A model generated the notes under the pieces. That model had not been told where the DNA came from. It worked only from the letters and a program-made list of their open reading frames with translations, and ran no database searches. 12,099 nt of DNA from Triparma columacea (Eukaryota; Sar; Bolidophyceae; Parmales; Triparmaceae). Below are positions 2,807-11,728 of this stretch, in pieces. The stretch lies in the NCBI GenBank assembly GCA_030267965.1, contig BRYA01000087.1:4266-16364 (forward strand), in the 5' to 3' direction. A program made the translations under genes and the position numbers. Within the stretch, counting starts at the first letter, position 1; each line of letters starts with the position of its first letter.

Positions 2807-3832
2807 TTAGTTGTTAACGCTCAATAAGTCAATGCACCTAACCGCGCTATACTCCTCCCCCTCAATAACCACCTCATTCCCCGCATAATCCCTAAACTTA
2901 ACCTTCTCCCCCTTCTCAACCGGTGGTTTAACAACCTCCCCAGTTGATGTTGTACGACCGGGTCCAAGCATAACAACGGTCCCAGTACAAGGTAGTAATC
3001 CCGCTGTAGTAGACCCGCTAACCGCGATCCCACTCTCAGTTTTCAATTCCCCTTTCTTCCCCTCCACCTTCACGAGTACGTAATCCTTCGCCGGTCTACT
3101 ATTAGCCATTGTCATGGTGGCGCCGTTGTATATCATAATAACGTCGTCGTCCTTGATTAAATTACAGTCCTCGTCATCATAGTTAATCTTCGTGCCGTCG
3201 AATTTACCGTACAGCACACTCTCACCTTCCTTAACAGGGTTCGCAATTAATAAGCCTGTGTGGGGGTGACGGCGACCGGGACCGCAGGCGAGGGCTACGC
3301 CCTCGGAAGGCTTGGAGGCGGACTGATCGGGGAGAAGGATACCACCTAGGGTGGCTTTTAATGTATCCTTTATCTAAGAGATGGGGAGGAAGGGGTAAGG
3401 GGTGGAGGGGGTGAGGGGGATTGTGCGGTTAGATGGTGGGGGTATTTGAGCATATTTTAGTCTCGTTATGGATTGTTTTGTTCGTGTGTTTTTGTTCAAA
3501 GTGTTTCTCCAAATTGTCTTGAAAAGTGTGACATCGCTGTTTATCTTAATCCTCCTTCCTTCAGTCTTCGTACTTACTCTGACTACAATCCCGTTGCTCA
3601 TTGGTGTAATAGGTCCTCTAATATCTTCTCCATCGAGTCTGTGTTTAGTCCTCTCTTTGTTTAGATTTGCTTGAGTGGCACTAACATCGGCAAGAGATGT
3701 GATGGCCTTTCTGACCTTTCTGACAACATTTAGGGGAGGGTTGTGGTAGATAGTGGGTAAATGGAATGATGGAGAGGATATAAAGGATGATACGAGGGGT
3801 AATAAGAGTAATAGAAGGGTTATAGTCTTCAT
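2807..3832 (-). CDS. CPN20: Plastid co-chaperonin Cpn20 (two tandem GroES domains)
   Basis: Cpn20 caps plastid Cpn60 during ATP-driven protein folding in the stroma. There are two exons: 3832-3578 (85 codons) and 3373-2807 (188 codons plus stop); the 204-nt intron at 3577-3374 has an AGA|GTAAGT donor and CTCTTAG acceptor in phase 0. The joined protein is 273 aa, about the family length plus a leader. Residues 1-20 are a signal peptide (MKTITLLLLLLPLVSSF) with Phe after Ser-Ser, resembling the heterokont ASAF cleavage motif; a basic stretch follows to about 60. GroES domain 1 runs from about 75 (GPITPMSNGIVVR, then the mobile loop with GGILLP at 95-100) to 172. Domain 2 runs from about 180 (DYVLVKVEGK, a diverged mobile loop ESGIAVS, then GPGR, VKFRDYAGNEV, EEYSAVRCIDLL). 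The ATG at 3832 is chosen because it gives the signal peptide; further upstream the frame belongs to the intergenic region. Confidence 0.9.
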
Positions 3833-3917
3833 ATTGGAGAGAATAGAATGGAGATTTAGAAGACACCACTTTGCCCAAAATTCGGCAAAAAACCCTTCGA
3901 TCTTCCATATCTCACGA
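3833..3917. promoter_or_regulatory. 85-bp divergent promoter region
   Basis: This is the whole gap between the start codons of Cpn20 (3832, leftward) and the OsmC-FAD gene (3918, rightward), so both 5'UTRs and core promoters must fit here or overlap the neighbouring first exons. It is AT-rich, with A-runs near 3884-3892. I see no clear TATA box. Both products carry plastid-type leaders, so shared regulation is plausible but inferred. Confidence 0.55.
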
Positions 3918-6900
3918 ATGCTTAAAGTGTCTCGCCTGTTTCTTATACTATCAGCTTTGAACATGCTTACAATTCAATCCTTAATAACATCATACACATT
4001 CACATCAACAACTAGTAGAATAACCAGCAAAATAACCAACAAAATCACACACTCAAAAGCAAGCCGACAAGCTCTCACATTTAGAAACACATTTATAAAC
4101 ACATTCACAACAAACGCGACTACCAAAGACCTACAGGGAGGAGAGGACAAAGATAGAGTACAGAGAAAGAACAAACTAAAGACAGACAGGTTTAAAAAGA
4201 CGTATAGATTGAAAACTATAGGTGAGATGAAGACAGAGCTGGCAAACTGGAGTGTATGGACCTTTGTTCCGATGAAGAGACAACCCACAATTCATTACCT
4301 TCTATGATATGCGACGTGCATTTCGGGGACACGCGCTATGATTAACCGCCAGCAACCTGTAAATGGCTGCCAAACGACCATACTGAGGAACAATAACAAC
4401 AACAAGTGTGACAAAGACGATAACAGCGACGCATCACACAGCCCTAACACAAAACACTTTCGCCCTTCTCTATGGCTGACACTATGGAACTCAGGTAAGA
4501 TGAGAAGAGGGAAAGGAGATGGAGAGGTCCTGTTTTGTTGTGGACGTTCCGATGAAGAGATAACCCACAAATGCAATCCTGTTTATGATATGCGACGTGC
4601 ATTTCGGAGACACGCGCTATGATTAAACGCCAGCAACCGCAAAATGGCTGCCAAATGACCATACTGAGGAACAAACAACAACAACAAAAACAACAAGAAC
4701 TGTGACAAGGACGATAACAGCGACGCATTACACAGCCCTAACACAATATACTTTCGCCCTTCGCAACGGCTGACACTATGGAACTCAGGTAAGATGAGAA
4801 TAGGGAAAGGAGGGAGAGGTCTTGTTTTGTTGTGGACGTTCCGCTGATGTAAATATACCACAAGCCAGAAGTTGTTATGATATGCGACGTGCATTTCGGA
4901 GACACGCGTAATGATTAAACGCCAGCAATGGTGAAATGGCTGCCAAACGACCATACTGAGGAACAATACACAACAAAAACAACAACAAGAACTGTGACAA
5001 AGACGATAACAGCGACGCATTACACAGCCCTAACACAATACACTTTCGCCCTTCTCAATGGCTGACACTATGGAACTCAGGTAAGATGAGAACACAGGGA
5101 AATGAGATGGAGAGGTCCTGTTTTGTTGTGGACGTTCCGATGAAGAGATAACCCATTGTCATTGTGCATATGATATGCGACGTGCATTTCGGAGACACGC
5201 GCTATGATTAAACGCCGGCAAACCCTAAATGGCTGCCAAACGACCATACTGAGGAACAATACACAACAAAAACAACAACAAGAACTGTGACAAGGACGAT
5301 AACAGCGGCGCATTACACAGCCCTAACACAATACACTTTCGCCCTTCTCAATGGCTGACACTATGGAACTCAGGTAAGATGAGAACAGGGAAATGAGATG
5401 GAGAGGTCTTGTTTTGTTGTGGACGTTCCGATGAAGAGGTAACCCTAAAGCGGAAGACTCTTATGATATGCGACGTGCATTTCGGAGACACGTGCTATGA
5501 TTTAACGCCAGCAATGGGTAAATGGCTGCCAAACGACCATACTGAGGAACAATACACAACAAACAAATACGCAAGAATAATATGGGAACAAACTAACGGC
5601 AAACGACGAGGAATCTAACACGCGATGTCCTCACTTCTCACCGCTCCCCACGATGATGCAGGTAAGATGTAAAGAGTGGGTCAGCGTGATTTCCTTTTCT
5701 TGGCTGTTTGTTTTTGTTCGTTCCGATGAAGAGGTAACCCACGAACGGTACTTGGATATGATATGCGACGTGCATTTCGGAGACACGCGCTATGATATAA
5801 CGCCAGCAAATGAAAAATGGCTGCCAAACGACTATACTGAGGAACAATACACAACAACAACAAGCTGGTAATTTCACACTGTGCCTTCCTGTCGAAGAGT
5901 CGCCTAACACACATCTTCAATCGCACTCGACATCCGCCCTCTTCCCCCCCCCCTCTTCTCCCCCCTTACACACACCTTTGGCGATGCAGGTAAGGAAGGA
6001 AGGAAAGAAGGAGAGGTATTGCAAAAGTCTTTGAGACGTTGAATGTTGTTTGCTCCAAGGATGTAAATATACCACGATCACAAGCTGCATATGATTAGCG
6101 ACGTGCATTTCGGAGACACGCGCTATGATTAAACGCCAGCAAGCCGGAAATGGCTGCCAAACGACCATACTGAGGAACAAACAACAACAAACAACAACAA
6201 CAAGAACTGTGACAAGGACGATAACAGCGACGCATTATACAGCCCTAACACAATACACTTTCGCCCTTCTCAATGGCTGACACTATGGAACTCAGGTAAG
6301 ATGAGAAGAGGGAAAGGAGATGGAGAGGTCTTGTTTTGTTGTCGACGTTCCGATGAAGAGGTAACCCACAAGATAACCGAGACTATGATATGCGACGTGC
6401 ATTTCGGAGACACGCGCAATGATTTAACGCCAGCAAGCATGAAATGGCTGCCAAACGACCATCCTGAGGAACAAACAACAACAACAACAAGAACTGTGAC
6501 AAGGACGATAATAGCGACGCATTACACAGCCCTAACACAAAACACTTTCGCCCTTCTCAATGGCTGACAATATGGAACTCAGGTAAGATGTAAAGAAATG
6601 GATCGGCGTGATTGTTGCTTTTTGTTTGTTCGTTCCGATGAAGAGGTAACCCAATATTCACGTGGTATATGATATGCGACGTGCATTTCGGAGACACGCG
6701 CAATGATTAACCGCCAGCAAGGGACAAATGGCTGCCAAACGACCATACTGAGGAACAAACAACAACAAAAACAACAACAACAAGTGTGACAAGGACGATA
6801 ACAGCGACGTATTACACAGCTCTAACACAAAACACTTTCGCCCTTCTCAATGGCTGACACTATGGAACTCAGGTAAGATGAGATGAAGGAAAGGAGATGG

Positions 6901-9900
6901 AGAGGTCCTGTTTTGTTGTGAATGTTCCGATGAAGAGGTAACCCACAATTCGTGAGTTCTTATGATATGCGACGTGCATTTCGGAGACACGCGCTATGAT
7001 TAAACGCCAGCAAATCTGAAATGGCTGCCAAACGACCATACTGAGGAACAATACACAACAAACAAATACTTAAGAATAATATGGTTACAAACTCACGGCA
7101 AACGACGAGGAATCTAACACTTGCGTTTCCCACCTTTTCACCGCTCCCCACGATGGTGCAGGTAAGAAGTGAAGAAGTGGGTCGGTGTGATTACGTTTTC
7201 TTGGCTGTTTGTTTTTCATTGTTTCGATGAAGAGGTAACCCACAACGCTTGTATGAGTATGATATGCGACGTGCATTTCGGAGACACGCGCTATGATTTA
7301 ACGCCAGCAATTGTTAAATGGCTGCCAAACGACCATACTGAGGAACAATACACAACAAAAACAACAACATGTGTGATAAGGACGATAACAGCGACGCATT
7401 GCACAGCCCTAACACAATACACTTTCGCCCTTCTCAATGGCTGGCACTATGGAACTCAGGTAAGATGAGATGAAGGAAAGGAGATGGAGAGGTCTTGTTT
7501 TGTTGTGGACGTTCCGATGAAGAGGTAACCCACAAACACACATGGGGTATGATATGCGACGTGCATTTCGGAGACACGCGCTATGATTAAACGCCAGCAA
7601 TGCTTAAATGGCTGCCAAACGACCATACTGAGGAACAAATAACAACAAAAACAACAACAAGAACTGTGACAAGGTCGATAACAGCGACGCATTACACAGC
7701 CCTAACACAAAACACTTTCGTCCTTCTCAATGGCTGACACTATGGAACTCAGGTAAGATGAGAACAGGGGAAGGAGATGGAGAAGTTTTGTTTTGTTGTG
7801 GACGTTCCGATGAAGAGGTAACCCTAAAGTGAGTTGTCCTATGATATGCGACGTGCATTTCGGAGACACGCGCTATGATTAACCGCCAGCAATTACCAAA
7901 TGGCTGCCAAACAACCATCCTGAGGAACAATAACAATACACAACAAACAAATACTCATGGATACGTTATTCACGGCAAACGACGACGAATCTAACACTTG
8001 CGTTTCCCTGCTTCTCACTGCCCTGCTTCTCACCGCCCACCACGATCATGCAGGTAAGATGTAAAGAAGTGGATCAGCGCGATTTCGTTTCATTGCTTTT
8101 TGTTTTCGTTCCGATGAAGAGGTAACCCACGAACGGTACTTGGATATGATATGCGACGTGCATTTCGGAGACACGCGCTATGATTAACCGCCAGCAAATG
8201 AAAAATGGCTGCCAAACAACCATACTGAGGAACAAATAACAACAAAAACAACAACAAGAACTGTGACAAGGACGATAACAGCGACGCATTACACAGTTCT
8301 AACACAATACACTTTCGCCCTTCTCAATGGCTGACACTATGGAACTCAGGTAAGATGAGAACAGGGAAATGAGATGGAGAGGTCTTGTTTTGTTGTGGAT
8401 GTTCCGATGAAGAGGTAACCCACAAATCTATTTCTCTTATGATATGCGACGTGCATTTCGGAGACACGCGCAATGATATAACGCCAGCAATTACCAAATG
8501 GCTGCCAAACGACCATACTGAGGAACAATACACAACAAACTACGACTACGTCAAGGCCTGGACTCCTCACAATACAACTTTACTCCTAATGTCCTAACCC
8601 TCCCCTTCCCCTTTCAGGCACTGGTCCAACCTCCACCAGCATAACCTCCACCTCCCACGAAATCCACACGGACCTCCCCCTCCCCCTTGGTGGTCTTGAT
8701 AAATCCCCCCAGCCCGTGGAGTTACTTTTGGCCGCGTTAACAGGTTGTTGTCAGTCCACCGCATCATACGTAGGTCGTGCAAGAGGTACCCGTGTAAACA
8801 AGGTTGAGATGAACATAGAAGCGTGGAGGGATAATAGAGGTGTTATGGGTAAACCTTTAGAAGATACACCCACAATACCACCGGGGCTACAAGAGGTTAA
8901 GGGGGAGGCTAGGGTTACGTTCGAGGAGGGGGTTGAGGTAGGGGAGGATGAGATGGAGGTATTCGGGAGGATTGTTGAGGAGAGATGCCCGGTGGCTTAC
9001 ATGATAACTAAGGGAGGGTGTAGGATTGAATTGGAATGGAAGGTTGAGAGGCAAGAACCAGGGGTACCAGAAGGAACGCCCCCCGGGCCCGAGGGTCGCG
9101 AGGAAGGGAAGGATTCGAAAGACTCTAAGTTCGGAACAACCCTCCAATACCCCTCGAGCACGAACCTCTACACGACCCCCCTTATACACCCACCTCTACC
9201 CTCAATCACCCCACCCACACACGTTACTATATACGGCGCAGGTCTTGCAGGTATCTCAGTCCTCTACCACATCCGGTCACTCTCACCCTCAACCACTGTC
9301 ACTATAATAGACAAGGTAGGTGTAGGTATGGGTGGTGCATCGAATGTAGCTGGTGGGTTGTTTCACCCCTTCACACCAAGGGGAAAATTAATATGGGGCG
9401 GGGAAGAAGGTATGAGAAAGGGAGAGGAAATGATTTTTAAAGCTGAGAAGTCAGGTAGAGAGGTAGTTGTGGGGAGGAGGGTTTTTAGGGCTGCGGTTAA
9501 GGAGGGGAATGAAGATGTTTGTAAAGGGATGTTAGAGAGGTATGAAGAGATTATGGAAGGGGGGTGGATGGGGAGGGATGAATTCGAGAAAACTACGGGA
9601 TGTAAGGGGATTGGGGGGGTAGAGTATGGGGGAGGGAGCAGGTGAGGACACATCGGAGGATATGGAAGGGGGGGATGTAGATGTAGATGTATAAAGATGA
9701 AAGAAGAGGAAAGAGGTGACGGAGAATGCGGCGCGCCCGTGAAATGGGAAGAGGGGTATACTAAAACCAATGACTTGCCCCCTCCCCCCCCCCCCACCCT
9801 CGCTCCTCTCTTTGCAAGGGTCGTTCACGTGGAGAGCTATTTGAAGGGCTTGTTCGAGTACTGCGAGACCATGCCAGGTTCAGGGAAAGTCAACATGGTC

Positions 9901-10658
9901 GTGGAGGACGTTGATTTCAATTCGGCTTTCTTCGACAGGGAGGAGAGAGAGGAGGAGGGGGAGAGGGTAGTGTACGCTGCGGGGGAAGGCATGTTCAAAG
10001 ATGTGAACGAAGGACCGTTTAAAGAATGGCCGGTTAAAAGGGTTCTAGGACAAAGGTGAGATGGCGTTGGAGTACGGGGGGGAAGGGGGGGGTGTAAATT
10101 GGTTTACTAACGCGAAATGTTTCGCACAGCTTGGAGTACCCGCCCTTACCTTCAGAAGTCTGTAACTCCACCGGCGGCGTCGTCGAAGCAGCAGGCTCGG
10201 CGTTTGCTGTTATATCGGGGAAGTACGCCTCCCCCCTCCCTGGTGGCCGTACCCTTCTGGGTGCGACGCAGGAGTTTAAGGGCTTCATGACAACCCCTGA
10301 GGTCGAGGCCGACCTACGGTTAAGGGGTGGTGAGGCCCTTGCGCCCGCCCTCTTTGAGGTTGACAATGAGGGTCGTCGGATAGTCTCGCCGGAGCGAACG
10401 ACGCAGGGGTTCAGACTACAGGCAGAGAGGGGTAGGAGAGGGAGGCTACCGATAGCAGGGGATCTGGGGGGGGGGAGGTATGTATTGACGGCACTTAGCG
10501 GAAGAGGCATGATTCATCATGGGATTTATGGGGAAGCAGTAGCAAGGATGGTGCTAGGAACGAAGGAGGAAGAGTACGGGGAGGAATGGGGGATGGGATG
10601 GTGGAGAAGGGATGGTGGAGAAGGGAGGGGAGGGGAGGGGGGGAGGGGAGGTGAATAA
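3918..10658 (+). CDS. OsmC-domain / DAO-type FAD-dependent oxidoreductase fusion protein
   Basis: Four exons: 3918-4221, 8618-9641, 9819-10055 and 10130-10658, 2094 nt or 697 aa. Donors are ATAG|GTGAGA, GCAG|GTGAGG and AAAG|GTGAGA; acceptors are TTTCAG, GCAAG and GCACAG. Branch-like TACTAAAAC and TACTAAC occur in introns 2 and 3. Phases 1, 2 and 2 join cleanly: KTI-G-TGPTSTS, GGGS-R-VVHVE and VLGQ-S-LEYPP. Residues 1-27 form a signal peptide ending ITS before Tyr, then a Ser/Thr/Lys-rich leader, so plastid import is likely. The OsmC domain spans about 90-245, with both redox cysteines seen: Cys145 (ELLLAALTGC) and Cys225 (RCPVAY). OsmC/Ohr proteins reduce organic hydroperoxides. A Pro/Gly linker leads to a DAO-type domain from about 303, with the dinucleotide motif GAGLAG at 308-313, then SNVAGGLFHPF, SGKYASPLPGGRTLLGATQE and GRGMIHHGIYGEAVA near the C-terminus. 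Its substrate is unknown; relatives oxidise amines or amino acids. The last ~25 residues are Gly/Arg/Glu low complexity. Intron 1 carries the 15-unit array. Confidence 0.85.
4266..4391 (+). ncRNA. Box C/D snoRNA-like element, unit 1
   Basis: Terminal stem GTTCC (4266-4270) pairs with GGAAC (4387-4391); box C GATGA follows the left arm and box D CTGA precedes the right arm. The internal hairpin GCG-A-CGTG/CACG-CGC lies between ATGATAT and TATGATT, which sit where D' and C' boxes would be. Hypervariable guide-position sequence: TTCATTACCTTCT (4291-4303). Second variable pentamer: CCTGT (4356-4360). The hairpin loop has a G for A change relative to other units. CTAAC begins at 4444, 52 nt after the stem. 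This general description applies to all 15 units; the following entries give only what differs. Confidence 0.68.
4546..4672 (+). ncRNA. Box C/D snoRNA-like element, unit 2
   Basis: Guide-position sequence TGCAATCCTGTTT (4572-4584), with one extra base before it compared with most units. Pentamer CCGCA (4637-4641). It has a single change in the otherwise constant segment before box D (CAAATGACC for CAAACGACC). Confidence 0.68.
4838..4964 (+). ncRNA. Box C/D snoRNA-like element, unit 3
   Basis: Guide-position sequence GCCAGAAGTTGTT (4864-4876); pentamer TGGTG (4929-4933). Its box C region differs: GCTGATGTAAATATACC replaces GATGAAGAGGTAACC, which gives a closer match to the core of canonical TGATGA. 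The hairpin arm CGC becomes CGT, keeping a G-U pair. Confidence 0.62.
5134..5257 (+). ncRNA. Box C/D snoRNA-like element, unit 4
   Basis: Guide-position sequence TGTCATTGTGCAT (5157-5169); the stretch between box C and the D'-like motif is two bases shorter than usual. Pentamer ACCCT (5222-5226), preceded by GCCGGCA instead of GCCAGCA. Confidence 0.66.
5425..5550 (+). ncRNA. Box C/D snoRNA-like element, unit 5
   Basis: Guide-position sequence GCGGAAGACTCTT (5450-5462), preceded by CCCTAAA instead of CCCACAA, a variant shared only with unit 13. Pentamer TGGGT (5515-5519). The hairpin arm reads CACGTGC, turning one G-C pair into G-U. The unit has the pyrimidine-rich tail type with CTAAC at 5615. 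Confidence 0.67.
5720..5845 (+). ncRNA. Box C/D snoRNA-like element, unit 6
   Basis: Guide-position sequence ACGGTACTTGGAT (5745-5757) and pentamer ATGAA (5810-5814); both are identical to those of unit 14. It sits in a unit with a distinct downstream tail: a long C/T tract at about 5936-5966 and an acceptor ending GCGATGCAG at 5989. Confidence 0.67.
6052..6178 (+). ncRNA. Box C/D snoRNA-like element, unit 7 (diverged 5' end)
   Basis: The left stem arm is GCTCC with one mismatch to GGAAC, followed by AAGGATGTAAATATACC, resembling unit 3; box C is weak here. Guide-position sequence TCACAAGCTGCAT (6078-6090); pentamer GCCGG (6143-6147). The D'-like motif is followed by TAGCG rather than ATGCG. 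It may be a degenerate copy. Confidence 0.5.
6347..6472 (+). ncRNA. Box C/D snoRNA-like element, unit 8
   Basis: Guide-position sequence GATAACCGAGACT (6372-6384); pentamer GCATG (6437-6441). The base before box D is C instead of A (CCATCCTGA), as also in unit 13. Confidence 0.67.
6632..6756 (+). ncRNA. Box C/D snoRNA-like element, unit 9
   Basis: Guide-position sequence ATTCACGTGGTAT (6656-6668); pentamer GGGAC (6721-6725). The segment between box C and the D'-like motif is one base shorter than usual. Confidence 0.67.
6924..7049 (+). ncRNA. Box C/D snoRNA-like element, unit 10
   Basis: Guide-position sequence TTCGTGAGTTCTT (6949-6961); pentamer ATCTG (7014-7018). The unit has a pyrimidine-rich tail with CTAAC at 7114 and the acceptor at 7161. 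Confidence 0.67.
7221..7346 (+). ncRNA. Box C/D snoRNA-like element, unit 11
   Basis: Guide-position sequence CGCTTGTATGAGT (7246-7258); pentamer TTGTT (7311-7315). The left stem arm is GTTTC, which still pairs with GGAAC through a G-U pair. Confidence 0.67.
7511..7636 (+). ncRNA. Box C/D snoRNA-like element, unit 12
   Basis: Guide-position sequence ACACACATGGGGT (7536-7548); pentamer TGCTT (7601-7605). Scaffold matches the consensus throughout. Confidence 0.68.
7804..7928 (+). ncRNA. Box C/D snoRNA-like element, unit 13
   Basis: Guide-position sequence AGTGAGTTGTCCT (7828-7840), preceded by CCCTAA as in unit 5. Pentamer TTACC (7893-7897), shared with unit 15. The constant segment before box D reads CAACCATC instead of CGACCATA. 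Confidence 0.66.
8108..8233 (+). ncRNA. Box C/D snoRNA-like element, unit 14
   Basis: Guide-position sequence ACGGTACTTGGAT (8133-8145) and pentamer ATGAA (8198-8202), identical to unit 6, while the base pattern after the hairpin (GATTAACCG) differs from unit 6 (GATATAACG). Confidence 0.67.
8401..8526 (+). ncRNA. Box C/D snoRNA-like element, unit 15
   Basis: Guide-position sequence ATCTATTTCTCTT (8426-8438); pentamer TTACC (8491-8495). This is the last element; its tail differs from all others and supplies the branch sequence (CTAAC at 8594) and acceptor (8617) of the host intron. Confidence 0.67.
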
Positions 10659-11050: not shown

Positions 11051-11728
11051 ATGAAATTCAGTCCCACCGCTCTCCTTGTCCTGACCTCTGCGACCTCTGT
11101 GGTCTCTTTCGGTGACGTGCCTAAAGGACCTTTGTGCGATCGAGCCGCGACAGGTAATCCCGAAGCCTTCTGTGAGGAATGGGTGAACAACTACGGCTGT
11201 GAATCCAACTGGGTTGATGTTTGCAAAACAGATCACCCTGCTGGCGTTGGTTACAACCTCTACACGATCGGCAACGGCGGCGTTTGCGTAAACTTTGGAT
11301 GCCCTTACGAGGAATTCAACTACAAAGATACTGTGGACTCTCCGGCCTTCGTTTGCCAGGGAGACGACGTTATGAAGATGGCTGTAAGTATTGCTGAGAG
11401 GCGAGCTTATCGATTGCTGCAAACTCCTAAACCTTACTCTTTTGGTCGTTCGTTTCGCTCCTCGTCTCCCGCTTCAAACTCCTAAACCTTACTCTTTTGG
11501 TCGTTCGTTTCGCTCCTCGTCTCCCGCTTCTATTATCAGACGGACTCTCAAAGTCAAATGACAGGAACCTGCCAGGAGATAAAAGATATACTGGAGTCTA
11601 CGGGAATTGGCCTGGGCCCAATTCCCGCGTTGTGCAGCAATTCCAATGCCCTGCAGGAGGGGCAGATAGAGGCGCTCCCCGGCTGGTTCCAGTACGTTTG
11701 CTGCGACACTTGCAGCGTTACTCCTTAA
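11051..11728 (+). CDS. Secreted cysteine-rich protein of unknown function
   Basis: Two exons, 11051-11383 (111 codons) and 11540-11728 (62 codons plus stop), joined in phase 0 across a 156-nt intron with a GCT|GTAAGT donor and TTATCAG acceptor; 173 aa. Residues 1-19 are a classical signal peptide (MKFSPTALLVLTSATSVVSF), so the protein enters the secretory route; Phe at position 20 also resembles a plastid bipartite cleavage site, though the mature part begins acidic rather than basic. The mature part holds 12 cysteines (including CDR, FCEEW, YGCES, VCKT, FGCP, GTCQ, VCCDTC), suggesting disulphides, and two Gly-rich turns. No transmembrane segment is seen after the leader. I do not recognise the family. 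The second exon is supported by continuation of the cysteine-rich pattern and a clean stop. Confidence 0.75.
11420..11529. repeat. Two-copy 55-bp direct repeat inside the secreted-protein intron
   Basis: Positions 11420-11474 and 11475-11529 are identical as read (starting CAAACTCCTAAACC, ending CGTCTCCCGCTT). Each copy includes a CTAAA branch-like motif and a pyrimidine-rich stretch, so the duplication doubled the candidate branch region just upstream of the acceptor at 11539. The lack of divergence implies a recent event. Confidence 0.9.

Follow-up and report, generated by a model that had tools for sequence, protein, structure and literature searches.

An intron-borne array of box C/D-like RNA units with hypervariable putative guide windows, and its genome-wide relatives, in Triparma columacea

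The window analysed here is a stretch of 12,099 nucleotides (nt) from the genome of Triparma columacea (contig BRYA01000087.1, designated C87, positions 4266–16364), and it carries an array of 15 units resembling box C/D small nucleolar RNAs (snoRNAs). The array lies between two exons of a predicted host gene (Table 1). Joining position 4221 to position 8618 keeps a single open frame that leads into an OsmC domain and the beginning of a flavin adenine dinucleotide (FAD)-dependent oxidoreductase (DAO) domain, and the entire 15-unit array is thus predicted, from splice-site letters and frame, to occupy one intron of a protein-coding OsmC-DAO gene. The OsmC domain matched Pfam above its cut-off (6.4e-10) and the DAO domain slightly below the curated cut-off (8.1e-6). 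The frame of the OsmC-DAO exon itself continues to a stop at 9645, and the OsmC and oxidoreductase parts lie within one gene region at 8618–10658, the first part being one open frame.

Table 1. Coordinates of the unit array, its host gene and candidate splice sites in the window (V1 and V2, hypervariable windows).
Feature	Position	Strand	V1	V2	Remarks
Host-gene 5' exon	3753..4221	+			Frame open from 3753, start codon provisional; ends ...CTATAG
Predicted host intron GTGAG...CTTTCAG (4.4 kb)	4222..8617	+			Contains all 15 units; based on splice-site letters and on flanking exons joining in open frame
Unit array	4266-8526	+			15 units, each 124-127 nt, all within the single predicted intron
Unit 1	4266..4391	+	TTCATTACCTTC	CCTGT	
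Unit 2	4546..4672	+	TGCAATCCTGTT	CCGCA	
Unit 3	4838..4964	+	GCCAGAAGTTGT	TGGTG	C box GCUGAUGU
Unit 4	5134..5257	+	TGTCATTGTGCA	ACCCT	
Unit 5	5425..5550	+	GCGGAAGACTCT	TGGGT	
Unit 6	5720..5845	+	ACGGTACTTGGA	ATGAA	Guides identical to unit 14
Unit 7	6052..6178	+	TCACAAGCTGCA	GCCGG	C box AAGGAUGU
Unit 8	6347..6472	+	GATAACCGAGAC	GCATG	
Unit 9	6632..6756	+	ATTCACGTGGTA	GGGAC	
Unit 10	6924..7049	+	TTCGTGAGTTCT	ATCTG	
Unit 11	7221..7346	+	CGCTTGTATGAG	TTGTT	
Unit 12	7511..7636	+	ACACACATGGGG	TGCTT	
Unit 13	7804..7928	+	AGTGAGTTGTCC	TTACC	
Unit 14	8108..8233	+	ACGGTACTTGGA	ATGAA	Downstream linker and some scaffold positions unlike unit 6
Unit 15	8401..8526	+	ATCTATTTCTCT	TTACC	
Candidate recursive (zero-length-exon) splice sites CAG/GTAAG	first 4492..4499	+			One per linker, 14 in total
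Sites 1-7, CAG starts	4492, 4786, 5078, 5371, 5659, 5987, 6293	+			
Sites 8-14, CAG starts	6580, 6870, 7159, 7457, 7750, 8051, 8347	+			
Next exon	8618..9641	+			OsmC domain followed by the first part of the DAO domain
Probable end of OsmC-DAO exon, CAG/GTGAGG	9639-9647	+			By-eye reading

The units are built on one scaffold. In the 5' half, the terminal stem strand GUUCC is followed by a C box, a stretch resembling ACCCACAA, the 12 variable nt of V1, and UAUGAUAU, of which AUGA represents the D' box. The 3' half contains, in order, a hairpin (GCG(A)CGUG...CACGCGC), a C' box of the form (U/A)AUGAU(W)(W), GCCAGCAA, V2, AAA(U/C)GGCUGCCAAACGACCAUA, the D box CUGA, and the closing strand GGAAC. 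V2 is a second hypervariable window of 5 nt, situated in the downstream loop between AGCAA and AAATGGC. The original prediction, which had placed 15 units of about 126 nt here, proved right as to their number and ends, with a true length range of 124–127 nt; its count of 14 distinct guides holds for the 12 nt preceding TATGATAT, units 6 and 14 being alike, and it recognised the variable stretch at D' while overlooking V2. In place of the GATGA that it listed in the scaffold, the C-box-like motif is better read as GA preceded by a 3-nt bulge that adjoins GTTCC. The intronic setting of the array had escaped it. Both the box C/D-like anatomy and the variable stretch in the position of a D' guide that it described are supported, with the qualification that the C and D' boxes are degenerate. 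The V1 and V2 sequences in the window look random except for the pairs 6/14 and 13/15, the latter sharing V2 and having 11 of 17 V1 + V2 letters equal. Ten of the 14 linkers are of one main type, with 79–98% identity to one another, and show no fast evolution.

A scan of the assembly (37.9 Mb in 789 contigs) with the unit core, allowing up to three mismatches, yielded at least 359 matches (206 + 153), a number far from chance; the reversed control gave none. We read 215 core matches in the window and in fetched stretches, of which 205 were parsed, and these 205 units are the basis of the family counts given below. The parser required ATG(A/T)A at the C box and accepted GTTCC and the CTGAGGAAC end with approximately one mismatch, not counting two wobble letters. 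It tolerates few stem mismatches, and badly broken copies therefore fall outside the counts. The 10 matches that failed were left out; inspection by eye identified two as fossil-like (locus L013) and one as partly N-masked (L054), two as the same partly duplicated unit (L044), and five as units carrying another C box (L034, L038, L057, and two in L064). The two L013 copies, around 3761 and 3146, are degraded or distant, one retaining the hairpin and 3' end only, and the L044 unit, around 2045–2067, has a duplicated D'-hairpin start and an altered 3' half. Judged by spacing, 180 of the 205 units lie less than 1 kb from another unit and 25 were counted as isolated, a loose set given that seven of the 25 are in stretches of approximately 250–300 nt and that L057 and L064 have a neighbour dropped by the parser. 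An array of 42 units (contig C66, 69900–82585) ends approximately 0.2 kb short of the contig end.

The scaffold features found in the window recur in the 205 parsed units. C-box motifs were GATGAAGA in 86 units, GCTGATGT in 76, AAGGATGT in 25, and others in 18, mostly with one or two mismatches from RUGAUGA under a parser that required ATG(A/T)A. Aligned after the stem as a 3-nt bulge followed by GA, the types read GAU-GAAGA, GCU-GAUGU, AAG-GAUGU, and AAU-GAUGU, with the 3-nt bulge fitting a kink-turn (k-turn), the rule for which we take to be a stem, a 3-nt bulge, and then GA. Within the parser tolerance of approximately one mismatch, CUGA was present as the D box in 204 units and 1021 of 1025 terminal-stem cells were paired. 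The terminal and apical stems comprise 12 pairs, or 2460 cells in all, 41 of which were non-standard; 36 of these 41 still pair, two of them by double change. RNAalifold, applied to 109 units, recovered the same terminal stem and hairpin. Replacement of a unit's own V1 with a swapped or shuffled V1 did not clearly change fold energy. Two scaffold patterns had no match in viral contigs, and nine single 17-nt matches in a bacterial genome collection were presumed to be due to chance.

Variability is confined to precise windows. The 12 nt of V1 directly upstream of D' comprised 203 distinct sequences among the 205 units, and both repeated sequences have V2 in common as well, giving two duplicated pairs. 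Column entropy was 1.7–2.0 bits in V1 (first 109 units) and 1.8–2.0 bits in V2 (98 of these), with the adjoining D', hairpin, and 3' columns nearly invariant in the same 109 units. A column profile over 186 close pairs located the variability in V1, V2, and a few A/T sites of C'. These A/T sites (alignment columns 76 and 82–84) vary among close paralogues and are linked, T occurring with TA and A with AT. No consistent V1–V2 complementarity was apparent from base pairing; an association between the last base of V1 and the first base of V2 (z 4.7) runs contrary to complementarity and is unexplained.

Guides and linkers were compared in 195 units with sufficient flanking sequence. Between linker identities of 0.5 and 0.95, mean V1 identity was 0.27–0.28 in every class; in the 112 pairs with linker identity of 0.90–0.95 it was 0.274, which equals the value given by composition, and in the extreme classes it was 0.19 (three pairs above 0.95) and 0.22 (six pairs below 0.5). 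Scaffold identity was 0.92–0.95 in all linker classes, each sampled with at most 300 pairs. At locus L066, a four-unit block has been duplicated, with linker identity of 0.96–0.97 in the best two pairs, and V1, V2, and at least one C' A/T site differ in all four pairs. Guides thus do not drift at the rate of linkers: their greater variability, as originally predicted, holds, and the drift at linker rate that had been set beforehand as refuting was not seen. Given that V1 identity stays at chance beside near-identical linkers and in the L066 duplication, the guides appear to be exchanged or made as wholes. Among 20,910 V1 pairs, none was one or two differences apart, compared with 1.6 expected for column-shuffled guides, and gradual drift is disfavoured for this reason; other pair distances were near random, bar a slight excess at four differences. 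The original prediction had offered strong diversifying selection or a rewriting mechanism as alternatives; the lack of near relatives speaks against gradual drift, and the present data fit either alternative, so that the two cannot be told apart.

One form of the latter alternative is directed rewriting by some machinery that supplies the units with new segments of 12 and 5 nt, in the manner of spacer acquisition or templated diversification. Guides that are either identical or at about chance distance, together with the change of both windows in every pair of the L066 block, are what it would produce. No donor was found, however, guides showing no excess of copies or complements of local DNA in 136 kb of fetched sequence; all four bases vary in every V1 and V2 column, whereas in diversity-generating retroelements the changes are directed at adenine; and the outcome could be similar if segments were exchanged with a large pool of alleles. 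We consider such rewriting improbable.

The composition of V1 is also restricted. Its G+C (GC) count had a variance of 1.63, compared with 2.84 in column shuffles; for the predicted duplex energy, the corresponding variances were 6.3 and 10.7. None of 1000 shuffles was as low in either case, and under a dinucleotide model, five and one of 2000, respectively, were as low. This narrow spread is as expected of a pairing segment. GC content of V1 and V2 was not correlated. Low CpG and TpA in guides at first suggested a foreign origin (PMC3829696) and were mostly the genome's own bias after GC matching (CG z -0.6, TA z -2.5); the guides still showed a scarcity of GG and CC and an excess of CA and GC after matching. 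Guides as complements of other guides were near chance (17 pairs at three mismatches, compared with 9.7), and guides did not fit coding or anticoding sequence. Words of 8 nt common to guides at shifted positions numbered 26, compared with 13.9 under the dinucleotide model, a weak and unexplained excess.

These data bear on the possibility that the variable windows are not guides and instead represent unconstrained loops of a conserved structural RNA or mobile intron. By eye, several isolated loci have one intron type in common, as introners would give, and the target searches described below identified no target. With unconstrained loops, however, divergence should equal that of linkers rather than exceed it, close relatives would be expected among the 20,910 pairs, and the narrowed spread of GC and energy would not be expected. 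We consider this explanation unlikely.

The intronic setting extends beyond the window. A GTRAG 5' splice site lies 40–79 nt upstream on the same strand in 173 of the 186 units preceded by 200 nt or more of available sequence, compared with 6 of 186 for the same stretches read as reverse complement. YAG/GTRAG occurs within 230 nt downstream of 151 of the 205 parsed units; for 149, it occurs within 220 nt and is accompanied by a branch-site-like word, CTRAY, at a median of 61 nt past the unit. The CAG/GTAAG sites in the window linkers are consistent with recursive splicing. For Candida parapsilosis and its relatives, recursive splicing across zero-length exons that separate intronic snoRNAs has been described (PMC5033589). 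With regard to proteins that act with C/D RNAs, fibrillarin is encoded at one locus in the assembly, the protein being 98% identical to a Triparma retinervis protein over 95% of the queried region (a match listed above it, at 78%, carries the name of an insect), and Nop-domain genes are present at three loci, with their identities as Nop56 or Nop58 unsettled.

To search for targets, we relied on generic ribosomal RNA (rRNA) sequences, rather than those of this species, because the assembly gave no match to two universal rRNA words. None of 203 guides had 11 or more complementary nt in generic 18S and 25S rRNA, compared with 0.55 in shuffles, whereas in a positive control limited to the small rRNA, 43% of the 13-mers from another generic 18S sequence reached 11 nt in the first. 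Complementarity of 10 nt was found for five guides, similar to shuffles, and that of at least 9 nt for 22 guides, compared with 15.9 in shuffles, 19 in the sense orientation, and 18 for reversed guides. A score tolerant of G-U pairs gave 80 guides compared with 63.5 in shuffles at one cut-off and 24 compared with 17.5 at another, an excess that we do not take as a signal. The search of guide reverse complements against rRNA that the original prediction had proposed thus leaves a classical rRNA-modification role unsupported, as judged with generic rRNA. It is accordingly most unlikely that the units are an ordinary snoRNA expansion that guides 2'-O-methylation of rRNA or other stable RNAs on a scaffold homogenised by gene conversion: the C/D-like anatomy and intronic location are typical of one, units 6 and 14 act as stable identities with equal guides on slightly different scaffolds, and the G-U-tolerant score is slightly raised, but the lack of 11-nt matches to generic rRNA and a guide number of several hundred, above the usual count of rRNA sites, argue against it.

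Two further signals in searches for bipartite targets were rejected. A 2-nt gap was found for six units, compared with approximately one expected (9-nt seeds), and was judged not significant over all gaps and orders, and a peak at gap 6 disappeared when every unit was counted once.

We think it somewhat probable that the units constitute a genome-wide family of several hundred intron-encoded orphan box C/D-type guide RNAs, the guides of which are replaced wholesale. Predicted anatomy, intron setting, confined hypervariability, and energy constraint all support a box C/D-type family with replaceable guides. Each unit would be excised with its intron, and array introns, which abut at CAG/GTAAG, may be removed in turn by recursive splicing, with one RNA freed per step. 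The conserved ends would form the C/D k-turn and the middle the C'/D' hairpin, and, as the anatomy suggests, these two elements may serve as a platform for Snu13, Nop56/58, and fibrillarin. Position and narrow energy spread point to V1 as the base-pairing guide, and the 5-nt loop of V2 may provide a second contact. Targets would be other than rRNA, and probably many different RNAs, such as messenger RNAs or foreign RNAs. A change of guide would be a whole replacement, most likely through V1–V2 exchange among units or alleles, with selection favouring novelty.

Several observations weigh against this interpretation. The C box of parsed units deviates from RUGAUGA, D' is AUGA rather than CUGA, and the conservation of stem ends and C box is partly selected because the core pattern and the parser chose the units. 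A single unit folded alone was not better than its dinucleotide shuffles, 39 of 200 of which did as well (z -0.79), and in a scan of the window and seven loci with Rfam 15, no snoRNA or other family covered the units, the matches obtained all being under gathering scores and taken as chance. A trinucleotide model, in which 158 and 105 of 2000 were as low, accounts for most of the narrow V1 energy band, which is thus partly explained by neighbour preferences. V1 pairs at four differences numbered 100, compared with 79.9 by chance, and simple exchange predicts more duplicated guides than the two pairs observed. Guide matches were not in excess in the own flanks of the 180 array units; for the 25 isolated units, matches of at least 8 nt were weakly raised (4 compared with 1.2 within 300 nt, and 6 compared with 2.9 within 1500 nt), the longest being 10 nt and lying inside the unit's own intron (L023). 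Bipartite V2–V1 targets in 198 kb reached 57 at best, compared with 42.5 +/- 7.4, and a genome-wide search with the two duplicated guides gave no exact bipartite match with the V2 complement first and a gap of 0–20 nt.

The units share with box C/D snoRNAs the terminal stem, CUGA opposite a C-box-like motif whose spacing fits a k-turn, D' and C' around a hairpin, an intronic location, and a variable stretch directly upstream of D'. They differ in that hundreds of units (205 read) have one scaffold and hardly any common guide, as well as in their degenerate C and D' boxes, second variable window, and lack of a match to generic rRNA. Nor are orphan C/D RNAs known to have a guide complementary to rRNA or small nuclear RNA. 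Like clustered regularly interspaced short palindromic repeat (CRISPR) arrays, the units combine a constant frame with unique short inserts in tandem arrays, but they lie in eukaryotic introns and vary in RNA-internal windows of 12 and 5 nt. Introner elements resemble them in the occurrence of tandem copies and of related introns at several loci, as read by eye, whereas the unit introns carry a putative constrained RNA. Candidate recursive splicing between units is a likeness to the intronic snoRNAs of Candida (PMC5033589). Dictyostelid Class I RNAs (PMC7919456) are similarly lineage-limited, with a short terminal stem, a conserved motif, and a variable remainder; they are 42–65 nt in length with their own upstream element, however, whereas the units are 124–127 nt in the window, intronic, and C/D-like, with variability limited to exact windows. 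Among the open-licence papers listed on snoRNAs, orphan snoRNA expansion, introners, and tandem or hypervariable guides, none was seen to describe such an RNA family, and the terms snoRNA, tandem, and splic- are absent from the main text of the Parmales genome paper (PMC10328945) in the part consulted.

Elsewhere in the window, a protein with a Chaperonin-10 domain is encoded at 2807–3217 on the minus strand. A 24-bp tandem repeat forms two arrays, at 386–499 and 817–961, and a 55-bp unit is present in approximately two copies, 98% alike, at 11416–11530.

We regard as doubtful, when taken as one joint claim, the further proposal that the family is a heritable and constantly renewed library of several hundred C/D-type guides, in which whole segments are installed in a fixed frame, one RNA is freed per recursive splicing step, and the products direct methylation or silencing of changing RNAs, viral or transposon transcripts for example. 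Each known box C/D RNA is conserved as a result of the conservation of its targets. Here the reverse is seen, with the frame conserved and the guide changing in hundreds of copies within one genome. Should these RNAs be produced and associate with the C/D proteins, they would represent the redirection of an ancient RNA-guided modification machinery to changing targets, and the mode of guide replacement could be tested directly on the arrays.

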